A stretch of DNA of 64,000 bases from Candidatus Nitrosocosmicus sp. (GCA_031177355.1 JAPSGR010000006.1:17802-81801); one strand, 5' to 3'; shown: positions 3,295 through 57,458, numbered from the stretch's first letter. Notes: generated by a model from the sequence alone, not told the origin. Program-made: numbers and translations.

Positions 3295-5004
3295 ATGGAT
3301 TTAATACAAATTTCCAATTTAACTAGTAAAACTATTGGTTCAAAACGTACCATTAGATATACTCAAAGTATTTGCCCCGATTGCAATATGATTCTTGACG
3401 CTGAGGTATTTGAAAGAGAAGGAAAAGTTTTCATGACAAAAACTTGTCCGAGCCACGGTGAATGTGAGGAATTATACTTTGGTTCTTTTGAGATGTATCA
3501 GAAATTCAGTACGTATTGGATGGATGGAAAAGGTGCACAAGCACCAAATGTAATGGTAGATAAATGTGCTTGTCCTACAAATTGTGGTTTATGTACAAAC
3601 CATCTTTCACACTCTGGACTAGCCAACATGATAGTAACAAATAGATGCGATCTTACCTGTTGGTATTGTTTCTTCTATGTTAAGAAAGGATTAGAAGGAG
3701 CGTATTTGTATGAACCATCTCATGAACAAGTTCGTGCAATGATGAAAACCTTAAAGGCTGAGAGACCAATTGCAGGAAATTCGATTCAAATTACTGGTGG
3801 TGAACCAATGCTAAGAGATGATATTACAGAACTAATCAAAATTATGAAAGAAGAGGGAGTAGATCATGTGCAACTAAATACTAACGGTATAAAATTGGCA
3901 TTATCACCCGAAACAATGAGGCAAGTGAGGATGTCTGGTGTTAGTAATCTGTATCTATCTTTTGATGGTGTAACAGCCAGAACAAATCCCAAAAATCACT
4001 GGGAGGTCCCATATACATTGGAATCCGCCAGAAAATGTGGCATGACGGTTGTGTTTGTTCCAACAGTAATTAAATCGATAAATGATCACGAATTAGGTGG
4101 CATAATTAGATTTGCTCAAAAAAATATGGATGTAGTACATGCTGTAAATTTCCAGCCTGTTTCTCTGACGGGTAGAATGAGTAAAAAGGAGCGAGAAAAA
4201 TATAGGATTACTATACCGGACTGTATTGAAAGAATCGAGGAACAAACGAATGGCGAAATTTCCAAAGATGGTTGGTTTCCAGTTCCTTCATGTATGCCAC
4301 TAACTAATGTGATTGAAGCATTCAGTAAAAAGCCTAAATATGAACTATCAATTCATTTCGCTTGTGGTGCAGGAACCTATGTATTTGAAGATGTGCAAAC
4401 TAAAAAGCTAACTCCTCTGACATCTTTTGTGGATATAAAAGGACTATTAGAATACTTTGAGGAGAAAACTGAAGAGATCAAATCTGGATCAAATAGATAT
4501 TGGACGATGCTAGAAGTAATACGAAAACTGAATCAATTTGTTGATCGCAATAAACAGCCATACGGACTTGATCTAGGACGTATGTTTTCAAGTATTCTTC
4601 TTAAACAGAATTTCGATTCTGTTGGTTCATGGCATGTCAGATCCTTATTCTTGGGGATGATGCATTTTCAAGATAAGTATAATGAAGATTTAGAGCGATT
4701 ACAAAGATGTGATATTCACTATTTGACACCTGATTTGCGTATAGTACCTTTCTGTGCATTTAACGTGATACCCGAATGGTATCGTGATAGAATACAGAAG
4801 AAATACAGTATACCGGTTGAAGAATGGGAAAAGGAACACGGACAAACGTTAGAAGCCGGGTTATACCGTGGCATTATGAGAAAAGGCAAATCAGAAGCAC
4901 AGATGGGATGTGCCATGTCAGAGATGCATAAGGCAGCCGCAGAAGCACAAGCTGATGAGAATCATAAAGGTATTGAACTTAGAAACGGTATGGCAGGTGC
5001 CTAA
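3295..5004 (+). CDS. radical SAM protein of the tetraether lipid synthase (Tes/MJ0619-like) family
   Basis: 569 aa; CxxxCxxC in TNRCDLTCWYCFFY, upstream Cys-rich motif CPDCN...CACPTNCGLC; GDGT-forming family in archaea. Confidence 0.8.
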   Translation: MDLIQISNLTSKTIGSKRTIRYTQSICPDCNMILDAEVFEREGKVFMTKTCPSHGECEELYFGSFEMYQKFSTYWMDGKGAQAPNVMVDKCACPTNCGLCTNHLSHSGLANMIVTNRCDLTCWYCFFYVKKGLEGAYLYEPSHEQVRAMMKTLKAERPIAGNSIQITGGEPMLRDDITELIKIMKEEGVDHVQLNTNGIKLALSPETMRQVRMSGVSNLYLSFDGVTARTNPKNHWEVPYTLESARKCGMTVVFVPTVIKSINDHELGGIIRFAQKNMDVVHAVNFQPVSLTGRMSKKEREKYRITIPDCIERIEEQTNGEISKDGWFPVPSCMPLTNVIEAFSKKPKYELSIHFACGAGTYVFEDVQTKKLTPLTSFVDIKGLLEYFEEKTEEIKSGSNRYWTMLEVIRKLNQFVDRNKQPYGLDLGRMFSSILLKQNFDSVGSWHVRSLFLGMMHFQDKYNEDLERLQRCDIHYLTPDLRIVPFCAFNVIPEWYRDRIQKKYSIPVEEWEKEHGQTLEAGLYRGIMRKGKSEAQMGCAMSEMHKAAAEAQADENHKGIELRNGMAGA

Positions 5005-7790: not shown

Positions 7791-8651
7791 GTGTCTTCGA
7801 TGAAATATGTTCAAATAGACTTATCTAATGATATTGCAATCGTGAAAATAAATAGACCTGAAGCCTTGAATGCAATGAATTTGGATGTTATAGCCGAGTT
7901 GAATAGGGCGATTGATATAATTTCTGCAGATGACGGAATCAAAGTACTTATTATCACTGGAGCAGGCGAACGCTCATTCTGTGCAGGTGCTGATATTTCG
8001 TATATGGTAAACATTGATGCAGTAACTGCTGAAAAGTATGCATCATCAGCCCAGAGCATGCTAAATAAACTTGAAAAAATGGAGAAACCTGTAATAGCTG
8101 CAATAAATGGGTTTGCTCTAGGCGGTGGATGCGAACTTTCACTTGTGTGTGACATTAGATTCGCCTCTGAAAATGCAAAAATTGGGCAACCCGAGGTAAC
8201 AATTGGTATACCTCCCGGCTGGGGTGGAACTCAACGGCTTTTAAGAATAATTGGACCTGCTAAGGCCAAGGAAATGATCTTTACTGGGAAAATGCTGTCT
8301 TCTCAAGAAGCACAAGACATTGGATTAGTAAATCAAGTAATTTCTCTCTCGGATAGTGAAAAATCTAATTTAGATCAATCTGTCGATCAAACTAACGAGA
8401 AGGAGAAAAACATTGCTCTTTCAAAAATGCTTAATAAGAAACTTTTAGAACACTCGATATCATTTGCTAAGGAGATTACCAAAAATAGCTTTAATGCTGT
8501 TAAGATAAGTAAAATGTTGATCAATAAAGGAATGGATGCTGATATCGATACTGGATTGCGGTTAGAAATCTATGGCTGGGCATTATGTTTTGCTCACGAG
8601 GATAGGCATAAAATGATGTCTTCATTTCTAAATAAAAGTACTAAAAAGTAA
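7791..8651 (+). CDS. enoyl-CoA hydratase/isomerase family (candidate 3-hydroxypropionyl-CoA dehydratase/crotonyl-CoA hydratase)
   Basis: AGERSFCAGADISYM, NGFALGGGCELSLVCDIRFAS, GIPPGWGGTQRLLRIIG crotonase motifs. Confidence 0.9.
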   Translation: MSSMKYVQIDLSNDIAIVKINRPEALNAMNLDVIAELNRAIDIISADDGIKVLIITGAGERSFCAGADISYMVNIDAVTAEKYASSAQSMLNKLEKMEKPVIAAINGFALGGGCELSLVCDIRFASENAKIGQPEVTIGIPPGWGGTQRLLRIIGPAKAKEMIFTGKMLSSQEAQDIGLVNQVISLSDSEKSNLDQSVDQTNEKEKNIALSKMLNKKLLEHSISFAKEITKNSFNAVKISKMLINKGMDADIDTGLRLEIYGWALCFAHEDRHKMMSSFLNKSTKK

Positions 8652-51262: not shown

Positions 51263-51351
51263 AGCCCGGTAGTATTTTAAATGCCGAGTGTAGTGGCCAA
51301 GCATAGAGGCCTTTGGAGCCTTTGACCCCAGTTCGAATCTGGGCCGGGCTA
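51263..51351 (+). tRNA. tRNA-Gln (UUG) with a ~16-nt insertion (probable intron) in the D-arm region
   Basis: AGCCCGG...CCGGGCT-A acceptor; anticodon arm GAGGC-CTTTGGA-GCCTT; T-arm CCCAG-TTCGAAT-CTGGG; extra 16 nt before TAGTGGCCAAGCAT. Confidence 0.85.
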
Positions 51352-51585: not shown

Positions 51586-51725
51586 TTGATACAGTAAGTT
51601 ATCTACTTAGAATAAAAGTTTTAATTTACCTATTCATATGATAGATGATATTTGTTAACAGACTAGCATTTTAGTCCTAGGAACTCATTCACATATTCTG
51701 AATCAAATTAAATGTGCTTGTTCAT

Positions 51726-51743
51726 TGTTTCGGCCGCTACAAG
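51726..51743 (-). promoter_or_regulatory. dyad motif copy a
   Basis: Reverse complement CTTG-TAG-CGGCCG-AAA-CAAT. Confidence 0.6.
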
Positions 51744-51854
51744 AGCATTACACTTGACGCGGAAATTAATTTAACAATGAAAAGCATATTTTCGTTTATA
51801 TGGTATCTATTCGCAACAAGATTATTAGAAAAGTATCGCTTTTCCTCACGAAGA

Positions 51855-51880
51855 TGAGGGAGTGCGGGATTCGAACCCGA
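51855..51880 (-). other. tRNA 3'-end fragment (T-arm plus acceptor 3' side), possible att remnant
   Basis: Minus strand TCGGGTTCGAATCCCGCACTCCCTCA without a tRNA body upstream. Confidence 0.55.
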
Positions 51881-51898
51881 TTATCTAACTAAATGTAA

Positions 51899-52387
51899 TT
51901 ATCCTTGTTCTTCTTCAGAGCTAGTATTTAGAGTCCCATTCTGAGCTAGTTGAAGCAATGGCCCAAAGGTCTGTCCGGCATCATTGCTGATTCTCATGAC
52001 AGGTTCATTAGCTGTCTGGTTGCGTTCCCACCATGTAACTATTACTGTATCACCATCTGCATCGACCATTGCATCTACAGATTCTAAGTCTGTTGTGTTG
52101 CTAAGGTTAATCTTATCACCAAATGTTACACCGCCATCTGTAGAAGATCTGAACAACACCTCATCATTTCCCGTTTTATTAGACCACCACGATACGTAAA
52201 CATTATCACCTGATACAGCGGTAGGCGCCTTTCTCTCATCAGCGGTAGGATCAATAAATGAGGCTGCGAATGCATGCTGTAGTTTTTGTTGTGTATCAAA
52301 TCCCTGTTGTATTGGTAAGGTTGCCATACTAACTGACAGCAAAAGGAAAATGAGTGTAATGCCACCAAATAGTTCGACTGATTTCAT
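51899..52387 (-). CDS. secreted protein with BNR/sialidase-like repeat (start trimmed to ATG at 52387)
   Basis: Signal peptide MKSVELFGGITLIFLLLSVSMATLPIQQ...AFA; SSTDGGVTFGDKINLSN and ISNDAGQTFGPLLQL Asp-box-like repeats. Confidence 0.7.
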   Translation of the reverse strand: MKSVELFGGITLIFLLLSVSMATLPIQQGFDTQQKLQHAFAASFIDPTADERKAPTAVSGDNVYVSWWSNKTGNDEVLFRSSTDGGVTFGDKINLSNTTDLESVDAMVDADGDTVIVTWWERNQTANEPVMRISNDAGQTFGPLLQLAQNGTLNTSSEEEQG

Positions 52388-52610
52388 GACTGCTCTATTT
52401 TCTTTGCTATATAAAATACCTTTTGATTCAATACCGGTCCCTATTCCAATATGGGTATAACACATGATTTGTAATAGAATGGATATAGTAGTTACAGCAG
52501 CAGACGACTGGAAAGATATTAAATGATGGCCTAGTAAGGGCCTGTCAAAGATACAGAATATCAATTAAAAGTGTCATAGCTCAGATGTATTATTATTTAC
52601 GTCTACTTTC

Positions 52611-52630
52611 TTTGATCCGGCCGCTACAAA
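52611..52630 (-). promoter_or_regulatory. dyad motif copy b
   Basis: Reverse complement TTTG-TAG-CGGCCG-GAT-CAAA (near-perfect dyad). Confidence 0.65.
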
Positions 52631-52843
52631 CGTATAAAATTCCTCTATAATTACTCACATCAGCAGTGCTAATAGTTCAAATCGAGTGTGTAACTACGGC
52701 GAATCAAATGAATGATACATTGTATTTTTAATCTTCTCTTGATAGTCAAGGTTAACTTTAGCTCCCAATGAAGTTGAAGTCGGGCCTTGAACTAATTCCA
52801 CAGTCGCCTCCTAAGTAAGGCCCGATATTCTTACAATTCGTCT

Positions 52844-53170
52844 TTAACAATTCAGTATTTCTCGAAGACTATCCGAATATTGATCGCCTGGTTCCAATAG
52901 TTCACAAGCTAACTTGTCGTTATCACGGTCATCATCTGTTAGAATGTCTCTTATGTCATTTGCAGATTCTATGGAGTTAGTTACGTCTAATGGATTCTGA
53001 ATTATGCCTTTTATAAGGTCACCAATTGTTTTGGGCTCTTCAGTTGGTGGTGGTGGAGTAATGACCGGCTTTACAGTTATAACCACTTCATCAGGTTCAC
53101 TTGATATCCCTTCTTCATTAGTGACAGTTAGTTGAAATACGAGATCTGTTTGTTCATTTGTTTTCGGCCG
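52844..53170 (-). pseudogene. C-terminal fragment of a PKD/Ig-like surface protein
   Basis: Open frame RPKTNEQTDLVFQLTVTNEEGISSEPDEVVITVKPVITPPPPTEEPK... with no ATG; preceded by the TAG inside dyad motif c. Confidence 0.55.
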
Positions 53171-53180
53171 CTATAACCAA
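53157..53180 (-). promoter_or_regulatory. dyad motif copy c
   Basis: Reverse complement GTTA-TAG-CGGCCG-AAAA-CAAA (1-nt longer spacer). Confidence 0.5.
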
Positions 53181-53257
53181 ATTAGTATTTTGGGATGATT
53201 ATCCTTCCTTGATGACTTGATGATTAAAGGTAATAAGTCATGTGGTTCAATACATCC

Positions 53258-53277
53258 TTTGTAGCGACCGAATCATA
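53258..53277 (+). promoter_or_regulatory. dyad motif copy d
   Basis: TTTG-TAG-CGACCG-AAT-CATA. Confidence 0.5.
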
Positions 53278-53360
53278 TCCTGAACTGAACGATTTATAAC
53301 AATAGTCACGGGTAATCAGCAAATAATAACAAAGTCTATAAATACGCATGATTAACGGTC

Positions 53361-54074
53361 ATGAGCAATTTGACAAATGAAGTAGAATCGAATTTACCAG
53401 GATATAAAAAGACTGCTTTTGTATGTCCTTTCTGCGGAGTATATGCTCACCAAAGCTGGGATATACACCTTCAAAACTCTAATCGAGGTAGTAGCTCCAA
53501 TTATTCAAAATATGAACTCTTAACATCTCGATGTCATAAATGTCATGAAGATTGTGTTTGGTATAACAAAAAGATGATTTATCCAGTGAATACCGGTTTA
53601 CCGCGGGCTCACTCAGATATGCCTGCCGAAGTGAGGACTCTTTATGAGGAATCAGCCCAAATCTATAATATATCCCGTAGAGCTTCGCTGGCTTTGTTAA
53701 GAATAGCAATCGAAATGTTAGTAAACGAATTATCTGGAAATTCCGGTGGACGATTATTCGACAAAATTGGAACCCTAAAGTCAAAGAATATAATAAATGA
53801 TATGATCCAAGAAGCATTTGATTCATTTCGTGTAATCGGAAATCAGGTAGTCCATCCTGGGCAGATAGAACTAGATGATAACATAGACCATGCGATATTA
53901 TTCAGTATCTTGAATTTTATGGTTGATATCGGGATCGCTAAACCACTACAAATAAGAAAACTATTTGAAGATAGTGTTCCAGATCCTCAAAAAGAGGCAA
54001 TTAATAAGAGGGATCTAAAGAATTCGACTAGCATGAAAGTAAACCCTCCTGAAGACGATTTACCGCAAAAATAA
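53361..54074 (+). CDS. zinc-ribbon plus DUF4145-like (HEPN-clan) protein
   Basis: CPFCGVYAHQSW...CHKCHEDCVWY; RRASLALLRIAIEMLVNEL...FDSFRVIGNQVVHPG. Confidence 0.75.
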   Translation: MSNLTNEVESNLPGYKKTAFVCPFCGVYAHQSWDIHLQNSNRGSSSNYSKYELLTSRCHKCHEDCVWYNKKMIYPVNTGLPRAHSDMPAEVRTLYEESAQIYNISRRASLALLRIAIEMLVNELSGNSGGRLFDKIGTLKSKNIINDMIQEAFDSFRVIGNQVVHPGQIELDDNIDHAILFSILNFMVDIGIAKPLQIRKLFEDSVPDPQKEAINKRDLKNSTSMKVNPPEDDLPQK

Positions 54075-54082
54075 TTCTTATA

Positions 54083-54322
54083 GTTGACGAATATGTCCTT
54101 GCGATAAATAAATCATTTCAAATTGTTATAATCAGATGTGTTAGGAATACAGATTCTATAGAAAAGCAAGACAGAAATCATAGGTATTTAGAAATTGTGT
54201 CATTTGTGTCACCGTCAGGTAACAGTAATGACTCAGTTATTTTCTCATTAATAATGAAAAATGTCAGGTATTGGTTTGCAAATATTGATGAATTATGGAA
54301 CAAGTATTCTACAGTAATATAA
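54083..54322 (+). pseudogene. unidentified coding relic (no start codon)
   Basis: 80-codon open frame VDEYVLAINKSFQIVIIRCVRN...VRYWFANIDELWNKYSTVI without ATG. Confidence 0.25.
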
Positions 54323-54431
54323 TTCAATAAAATTCTATTTGATCCAATATTCTCTTCAGTAAAATTCCTTTATAATTATATCGTTACCGGATTACTCACT
54401 CAATCACTATAAGAAATTATAACTTATGATA

Positions 54432-54453
54432 TTTAGAGTGGCCGAATCAAATA
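54432..54453 (+). promoter_or_regulatory. dyad motif copy e
   Basis: TTTA-GAG-TGGCCG-AAT-CAAA-TA. Confidence 0.55.
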
Positions 54454-54550
54454 ATAGATCGTAAAACAAAAAAGCCATCTTTTCAACGTAACGACAGTAA
54501 CTGAATATAGAAGTATCTACTTTGCGAAGGTCTTTAATAGAGTGTAACGA

Positions 54551-54660
54551 TGGTGGATATAGAATAGGTTTAGGTTACAGTCGATACAAAAAGATAATGG
54601 CAGAGAATTATACACCGGCTATTATATTATAAGTAAAAATTCTACAGAATGACGTAGAAA
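54551..54660 (+). pseudogene. decayed paralog of the 55881-56144 gene
   Basis: ATGGTGGATATAGAA (MVDIE) then frameshifted DNGRELYTGYYIISKN, compare HNGKEIFKGFYSIGKK. Confidence 0.55.
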
Positions 54661-54765
54661 TTTACAATAACGGATCCACTCGGGAAGAGGAAAATTTTGA
54701 GAAACTATTTCGTCGTATTCAGTTATTGTAATTAGTAAAGATGTTTTATGTAGATTATCTAACTG

Positions 54766-55509
54766 TTAATCTTCTCTCGCAAATGGGTCTAGAATGACTC
54801 TTTCAACCAACAAGCGATAGATTATCCTATCCAAAATCTCTATAACTTCAGGTAATATTGTCAATATCAACAGGTCTAAAAAATCACCATAATTTGGCGG
54901 ATTTCCTTTCTCAAATTTGTATGACTTTCCGTTGCAATCAACGACTTCATCGCTTTGAGTATAAACCCCGTTATTGTGTATAGCATTTCTGACATTATGG
55001 AACAATTGAATACAACCACACTTTGAGTTTAAATCCAAGAAACCTAAAATTTCCTTAACTAGTGTGCCAAAATTACCCTCCTTAATTTCACCTTTTGCTG
55101 GTGGATTTAGTAAATAATTATAGAAAACTCTAACTCTACTTTCCAAAATTGAGAAACATGATGTATATAATCCTACGATCATAGACTTGATGAATTCATC
55201 GGAAATTGTTTGACGTCGAACCATCCTCATGATTTCTTTATCACCGAGATAATTGTCAACATACTGATCCAAATATGAAAAGTAAATCTCGTAATTGGAA
55301 TTCCACCAATCGTCTTTACCTAAACATTGATCTCTAAAGATGAACGATAGCTTTGCAAAACGAATAATAGAAGAAAGCGTATTATATGTAGTATATCTAA
55401 TATCTACTTTCCAATCAGAATTTTTATTCGGAATATTCATTGCCGTTTCAGCGGCCTTATTAAATAGCTTAACCTCTAGCGTATGTAAATTATATATCGC
55501 ATCATCCAT
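54766..55509 (-). CDS. HEPN-like hypothetical protein
   Basis: 247 aa alpha-helical; LFHNVRNAIHNNGVY motif near the C-terminal half. Confidence 0.55.
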   Translation of the reverse strand: MDDAIYNLHTLEVKLFNKAAETAMNIPNKNSDWKVDIRYTTYNTLSSIIRFAKLSFIFRDQCLGKDDWWNSNYEIYFSYLDQYVDNYLGDKEIMRMVRRQTISDEFIKSMIVGLYTSCFSILESRVRVFYNYLLNPPAKGEIKEGNFGTLVKEILGFLDLNSKCGCIQLFHNVRNAIHNNGVYTQSDEVVDCNGKSYKFEKGNPPNYGDFLDLLILTILPEVIEILDRIIYRLLVERVILDPFARED

Positions 55510-55810
55510 TTTTAAATATTAATAGATCATGTGTAATTAACAGTAGCCTGTATCATCAACAACGGATTATTGATTTAGATACAGAATCAACTTTATCGTT
55601 TTTGCTATTTGAGTCATTTGTTGCATATCTAAAAATAATTCTGATCAATTGCTATCTGACTAATCTAAGATTTGTCATTCTAGGCTTTTAGATTAGATCT
55701 TATTAAAGCTGATAAAAACAGCTTCGGTTCAAAGATCATATAACATCACAATATATTCCCTCTGATCGTTACGTTAATCCGGCAAGCGTTTTAGATAAAG
55801 TCTTGTATTC

Positions 55811-55831
55811 TTTTGAGCGGCCGAAACAAAG
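55811..55831 (+). promoter_or_regulatory. dyad motif copy f
   Basis: TTTT-GAG-CGGCCG-AAA-CAAA-G, 50 bp upstream of ATG 55881. Confidence 0.6.
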
Positions 55832-55880
55832 AATCAATCATAAAATCTAATATAATTCAGATTCCAGTTCATAGATACTA

Positions 55881-56144
55881 ATGGTAGATATAGAGGAGGC
55901 TTATGTTCGCGATCTATATAAAAAGCATAACGGAAAGGAGATTTTCAAGGGTTTTTACTCTATAGGAAAAAAGATCTATCAAGACGATGGTGAAATCGTT
56001 AATGAGGGCTTTGGTCTGGATAGAGAAGAATTAGAAATCCTCAGAGCTAGAATTATGGCAGTATTAATCGATGAATTGCCAATAAATAAGAAATCTAGTT
56101 CTAGTTCACATATCAATGAACCAAAACAGACAAAACTATTCTAA
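55881..56144 (+). CDS. small conserved hypothetical protein (intact member of a locally repeated family)
   Basis: MVDIEEAYVRDLYKKHNGKEIFKGFYSIGKKIYQDDGEIVNEGFGLDREELEILRARIMAVLID; relics at 54551, ~61290 and ~61850. Confidence 0.75.
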   Translation: MVDIEEAYVRDLYKKHNGKEIFKGFYSIGKKIYQDDGEIVNEGFGLDREELEILRARIMAVLIDELPINKKSSSSSHINEPKQTKLF

Positions 56145-56249
56145 AGTGGACTTGCTTTAAAAGTCATAATTAACTATTGTATTAGAGACAAACCAATCGT
56201 TAGCATGATATGGAATATTACTGATTAGCTTTAAATTGAATTCATTGGC

Positions 56250-56271
56250 TTTGCAGCGGCCTAATCAAATA
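56250..56271 (+). promoter_or_regulatory. dyad motif copy g
   Basis: TTTG-CAG-CGGCCT-AAT-CAAA-TA. Confidence 0.55.
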
Positions 56272-57131: not shown

Positions 57132-57458
57132 TTAAATAATCAACTCCTTTTTTAATCCATCCAATACAGGCTTTATCCTCTTTGTTATTATTTCGTTTAT
57201 GTCCGGTCGATAATAATGATTTACAAAAACAGAACTTGAAATTCTCCCCTACAACAAATCAATAATCTCAGGTTCTATTCCTTTGTTTCGCAAGGAAGTA
57301 GCTAAGACATGGCGAGGGTAGACAGATGCAATGAAATATTCGACCTTTAATCTTCTTCCAACTGAACTGTTTACTGTTTGACGGAGTAGCGTAACTATTT
57401 CAAGAATATTTGTATTTATTATACTTGTAAATGCCTTACTTGTTACTTTCATAAACAA
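57132..57458 (-). pseudogene. C-terminal part of a tyrosine recombinase/integrase, interrupted by in-frame TAG
   Basis: YPRHVLATSLRNKGIEPEIIDLL-(TAG)-GRISSSVFVNHYYRPDINEIITKRIKPVLDGLKKELII; DLLQGR and HYYRP are typical of archaeal integrases. Confidence 0.75.

Follow-up and report, generated by a model that had tools for sequence, protein, structure and literature searches.

In the pdif (dif) modules of Acinetobacter, which depend on XerC/XerD, short sites bound shuffled gene-sized accessory units; these sites resemble dif, being 28 bp long with an 11-bp arm on each side of a 6-bp spacer, and follow XerC/D (PMC6449649, PMC13141974). Integrons with attC cassettes, known also in archaeal MAGs (PMC9668308), are arrays of small one-site units in an oriented order. 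Integrated elements and tandem att arrays of Thaumarchaeota have short direct repeats, tRNA-linked islands and truncated integrases nearby, and the att sites of such elements, with a median length of 17 bp, lie at tRNAs and gene 3' ends (PMC6563490).

Here we analysed a stretch of 64,000 nucleotides, called the window, from a Candidatus Nitrosocosmicus sp. genome (GCA_031177355.1), in which seven copies of a 21-bp motif lie among the small units of an accessory island. The locus shares something with each of the three systems. As in pdif modules, short sites bound gene-sized units and the recombinase gene need not lie in the array. As in integrons, small one-site units are arrayed in an oriented order, and about 110 bp before some motifs are similar between units. 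As in the Thaumarchaeal elements, short direct repeats are found in a tRNA-linked island with a truncated integrase nearby. Since short att sites are typical of those elements, the motif fits the general habit of short-site accretion, with a site that is not tRNA-derived.

There are also differences. In contrast to the 28-bp pdif site, the conserved block is 21 bp with the core GCGGCCGAA best conserved, and the copies in a related genome (G006) are in direct orientation. The GTTRRRY / RYYYAAC boxes of attC are absent from the conserved columns (composition from -40 to +59), IntI was not found near the arrays, and whereas attC sites have folded arms of 55-141 bp, inverted partners are present here at only a few sites. 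Unlike both systems, the window's genome (97% complete) has no PF00589 protein above threshold, though a diverged XerA may score below it. Compared with the Thaumarchaeal elements, the units are far below element size, consisting of one gene or fragment, and the motif is not a tRNA sequence. No match of the 21-bp site to a described site was found. The closest concept is short-att accretion, or an array of dif modules or cassettes, in ammonia-oxidising archaea; the arrays appear to work like integron and Xer systems but lack the defining features compared here and should not be filed there.

Motif copies and units of the island

The features of the island are listed below by window position, with weight-matrix scores in bits for the motif copies. 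L036 and L040 are loci of genome G009 and L037 is a locus of G006.

51282-51351, + strand: tRNA-Gln, left edge of the island
51724-51743, - strand: motif copy 1, CTTGTAGCGGCCGAAACAAT, 31.3 bits
51899-52564, - strand: gene for a BNR-repeat-like secreted protein, in the unit that copies 2 and 1 enclose
52611-52630, - strand: motif copy 2, TTTGTAGCGGCCGGATCAAA, 34.0 bits; weak inverted partner about 82 bp upstream
52844-53172, - strand: 3' fragment of a PKD-type secreted-protein gene; begins in copy 3, homologous to L036:11764-12087 from the motif onward
53158-53177, - strand: motif copy 3, GTTATAGCGGCCGAAAACAA, with one extra A, 22.8 bits
53258-53277, + strand: motif copy 4, TTTGTAGCGACCGAATCATA, 28.6 bits
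53361-54074, + strand: DUF4145 protein gene (PF13643, 54 bits), unit after copy 4
54432-54451, + strand: motif copy 5, TTTAGAGTGGCCGAATCAAA, 24.7 bits
54722-55797, - strand: unit with a 247-aa gene, homologous to L037:6564-7644 and L040:10908-9820
55811-55830, + strand: motif copy 6, TTTTGAGCGGCCGAAACAAA, 33.0 bits
55881-56144, + strand: gene for an 87-aa protein, in the unit following copy 6, with a decayed paralogue at 54550-54696
56250-56269, + strand: motif copy 7, TTTGCAGCGGCCTAATCAAA, 32.5 bits
56545-57033, + strand: gene for a secreted protein of 162 aa, in the unit following copy 7
57210-57407, - strand: decayed C-terminal part of an SSV-type integrase (PF16795), with one internal TAG

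The seven copies that a preliminary description had reported at 51.7-56.3 kb were all recovered. Six lie within 3 mismatches of TTTGTAGCGGCCGAATCAAA, where shuffles expect 0, and copy 3, with its extra A, was found by the weight matrix, which scores it below the other six (24.7-34.0 bits) and was trained on the same window copies that it scores. Most of the reported coordinates stand; copy 1, given as 51726, starts at 51724, and copy 3 is now placed at 53158. The asymmetric spacer and the orientations assigned from it are as claimed, every copy lies outside intact genes, and there is indeed a decayed paralogue (54550-54696 and 55881-56032 are 65% identical). The label BNR comes from the same description; the gene at 51899-52564 has no Pfam match. 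Three copies point left and four right, diverging from 53.18-53.26 kb, and the complete CGGCCG core is kept in four of the seven. The next-best match in the window (55445, 16.6 bits) is inside the 247-aa gene, and we take it as a coding coincidence because the homologues in two other species score 10.5 there.

Elsewhere in the same genome (L101, 5698-7511, on contig G000:C13), homologues of the secreted, 87-aa and PKD genes of the island form one cluster that lacks the motif. One motif-bounded unit of G009 is headed by a gene for an 892-aa protein (L036:8923-11601) with matches to AAA/STAND-type NTPases, which is defence-like.

Most copies face a gene on the same strand, and one heads a truncated gene. 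A near-palindrome that is intergenic and mostly faces a same-strand gene could be the operator of a dimeric regulator controlling accessory-island genes, one of the two readings that had been left open. The same picture is given by a cassette carrying its site at one end. The distance from motif to start varies, as previously noted, here from about 28 to 295 bp, and neither a TATA-like block nor any other block of columns is conserved at a fixed distance from the motif (column composition -40 to +59), which together with the copy at the truncated gene argues against an operator. Furthermore, the genus has many motif-free homologues of the 87-aa, BNR, PKD and secreted genes, and a weight-matrix scan of 281 kb around them hit only the G009 array itself.

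Shape and conservation of the motif

The consensus S-TTTGYAG-CGGCCG-AAWCAAA has 21 letters and is partly palindromic. An alignment of 17 copies, drawn from four genomes, delimits a conserved block of 21 bp (positions -1 to +19), with G or C at position -1 in 15 of the copies. Its centre is the most strongly conserved part, and outside the block only isolated weak columns (+22, +26 and +52) pass the 99% level. A footprint this sharp, and a GC-rich core kept in AT-rich DNA, suggest that a dedicated recombinase acts on the motif.

As a short repeated sequence, the motif might be the end of a transposon or MITE, either as terminal repeat or as preferred insertion target. A weak inverted partner is found 80-106 bp upstream at 52611, in the pair 53158/53258, of which copy 3 is the left arm and copy 4 the right, and at L036:11759 only, with p of about 0.02 each. 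At most sites a convincing partner is missing, the copies around the unit in G006 are direct and not inverted, the scanned unit proteins yielded no transposase, and no element with the motif as terminal inverted repeat was seen in the genomes compared. We consider a transposon or MITE origin very improbable.

The inverted pairs 80-106 bp apart (53158-53277 and 52611-52707 in the window, L036:11653-11778 in G009) are potentially foldable. A hairpin terminator is ruled out, as the central CGGCCG palindrome leaves no loop.

Distribution across genomes

Genome-wide scans used the pattern with mismatches, and the weight matrix was applied to smaller regions. The 2,322,072 bases of the window's genome contain no match with up to 3 mismatches beyond the six of the island, all in one 4.5-kb stretch, and the reversed pattern, run as a control over the whole genome, gave 0 matches. 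Neither copies at background frequency nor a match to a known insertion-sequence end, which the preliminary description had named as grounds against its claim, was found.

Among 70 genomes of the family, true-looking copies, mostly clustered, were detected in G006 and G009 of the same genus and in G059 of another genus. A stricter cut over 401 genomes of the class returned these three and one match each in G026 and G054. We judged these single strict matches to be chance, as well as weaker matches inside conserved genes (e.g. L039 and L042). The core pattern had 28 single matches in scattered taxa among 85,488 GTDB species, against about 31 by our own chance estimate, and an occurrence outside the family was therefore rejected; the sole match in this lineage among the 28 is G059, a Nitrososphaerales MAG. 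Three patterns searched in viral contigs gave 0, 3 and 5 single matches. Since G009 is a single contig of 3.43 Mb, errors of MAG assembly do not account for the arrays.

Homology breaks and motif-bounded units

The comparison between species identified motif-bounded units that are present in one genome and absent from another. One series concerns two genes, A (a 524-aa secreted protein) and B (a 135-aa protein). In G059 they are joined by one motif (L043:432), and at another locus of the window's genome (L141:1412, contig G000:C55) by one decayed motif of 13.3 bits; the two loci align over 685 bp across the junction. In G006 two motifs on the same strand (L037:4112 and L037:4665) flank an extra 553 bp between A and B, which is found in no other family genome, save for its last 60 bp and motif in G059. 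Both direct copies flanking a unit and a single copy at an empty junction, the latter in two places, are features of cassette arrays, and the series is what insertion into a site already in place would be expected to leave. A further genome (L149:768-787, contig G010:C43) has a motif-like sequence with a weak score (10.7 bits) just past gene A, in the opposite orientation.

Other homologies also break at the motif. A unit of about 540 bp is common to G009 (L036:8152-8689, where the copy at 8152 is decayed) and G059 (L038:4382-4920); the match runs between two motifs, and the flanks differ. At L037:4112 and L038:4131 the sequences agree up to the motif and differ after it; likewise, about 110 bp before the motif are alike at L036:8689 and L036:11759, followed by different DNA. 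The PKD fragments of the window and of G009 both begin in the motif and are preceded by unlike DNA, while intact PKD genes elsewhere extend further upstream of this breakpoint. In the L036 and L038 arrays every motif is on one strand.

In total, 16 of 78 homology-block ends are within 15 bp of a motif, where 2.9 are expected and 20,000 random placements reached a maximum of 12; reciprocal block ends are counted twice here, so that there are about eight independent junctions and the nominal p-value is too small. Several block ends are away from motifs. The homology of the 247-aa unit with G006 stops 14 bp short of copy 6, whose counterpart in G009 is L040:9782, and in G006 the unit ends at L037:7644 without a motif there. 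Such ends are expected of old decayed arrays, but also fit other models.

Homology that breaks at the motif, with unrelated sequences joined on either side, speaks against an operator, which we regard as improbable; the motif may still serve as an operator in a secondary role. Of the two readings left open earlier, it is the recombination site that the homology breaks, the present and absent units and the single-motif junctions favour. Judged from these alignments, units begin and end at the motif, a junction can hold a single motif and no unit, and flanking DNA has been exchanged between loci and species. We therefore consider it likely, with a probability of roughly 75%, that crossovers of a site-specific recombination system take place at the motif, which bounds small gene-sized units. 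Gene-sized units, probably circles or excised segments with one motif copy, would insert at an existing copy. An inserted unit would then be flanked by directly repeated copies and the array would grow, while excision of a unit would leave one copy. The array in the window appears to be an old, decaying one in a tRNA-linked island.

Setting of the arrays and the PKD gene

The island begins after tRNA-Gln, and a tRNA at L037:3479-3579 precedes the array of G006. In G009 the array comes after an element with an integrase, a 677-aa protein, taken for a putative helicase, and a PriX-like primase gene. In G059 it comes after genes for an AAA-type protein and a PriX-like primase, on a contig without an integrase.

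These plasmid-like replication genes ahead of two arrays are consistent with a narrower form of the recombination-site explanation, in which the motif is the attachment core of one integrative-element family and the arrays are serially integrated, decayed elements, perhaps first in a PKD-domain gene. Thaumarchaeal elements do use short att sites and gene 3' ends, as cited above. Moreover, the breakpoint sequence of intact PKD genes is in register with the motif: for example, TTT-ACA-GCA-CCT-GAA-GTA-AAT-GAA-CAA aligns with TTT-GTA-GCG-GCC-GAA-ACA-AAT-GAA-CAA. This sequence scores low with the weight matrix (best 1.5 bits), but in two of five genes it is one of the three best-scoring positions on its strand. 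The truncated PKD fragment may have arisen when a degenerate in-gene site recombined, taking its left half from the array and its right half from the gene.

The window's own genome also holds an analogous accretion. At 51862, within the BNR unit, lies a tRNA-3'-end-like piece, which recurs four times among tandem BNR genes on contig G000:C72. This piece, GTGCGGGATTTGAACCCG, separates tandem BNR-like genes at positions 2212, 3019, 3664 and 4299 of L103 on that contig, and at 4451 and 5751 of L102 on contig G000:C92; SSV-type integrase relics are found near them. The tandem BNR arrays may thus be a second, tRNA-derived kind of gene-sized accretion.

What counts against the attachment core is that the integrase end of the G009 element carries no motif, that the units are just one gene or fragment in size, and that recognisable PKD sequence follows only two of 18 sites. 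We see it as a possible but not a favoured variant. The first and the last of these observations also led us to reject the motif as the end site of the G009 element and as the remnant of a repeated PKD gene (the PKD profile matches downstream of only 2 of 18 sites). No clear direct repeat framing the G009 element was found.

Candidate recombinases

Returning to the crossover site in general, no recombinase common to the arrays was found. A 414-aa integrase lies about 8 kb from the G009 array, and PF16795 is present in the window's genome only as the relic at the end of the island. The same genome has one small serine resolvase (PF00239, L153:4481-5116), adjoining apparent biotin-synthesis genes by our reading of the sequences. 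Of the 70 family genomes, 63 encode a resolvase of this kind, as a single copy in nearly every case. A tie between the motif and the resolvase gene locus was rejected, no motif being nearby.

The candidate enzymes are an element-borne tyrosine integrase that is now lost here, or the host's small serine resolvase. More speculatively, and in our view rather doubtfully, the arrays could belong to a cassette-capture system that is confined to Nitrososphaeraceae, uses a 21-bp site of its own with no relation to attC or Xer dif, and is perhaps driven by the serine resolvase. In such a system the palindromic GC centre would let units join in either orientation.

Implications

Accessory islands of ammonia-oxidising archaea are known, but not how single genes come to enter them. 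The motif would provide a concrete, sequence-defined site for gene shuffling in these archaea. Should the enzyme prove to be the conserved serine resolvase, this would give a function to a gene with no assigned role that we could find.
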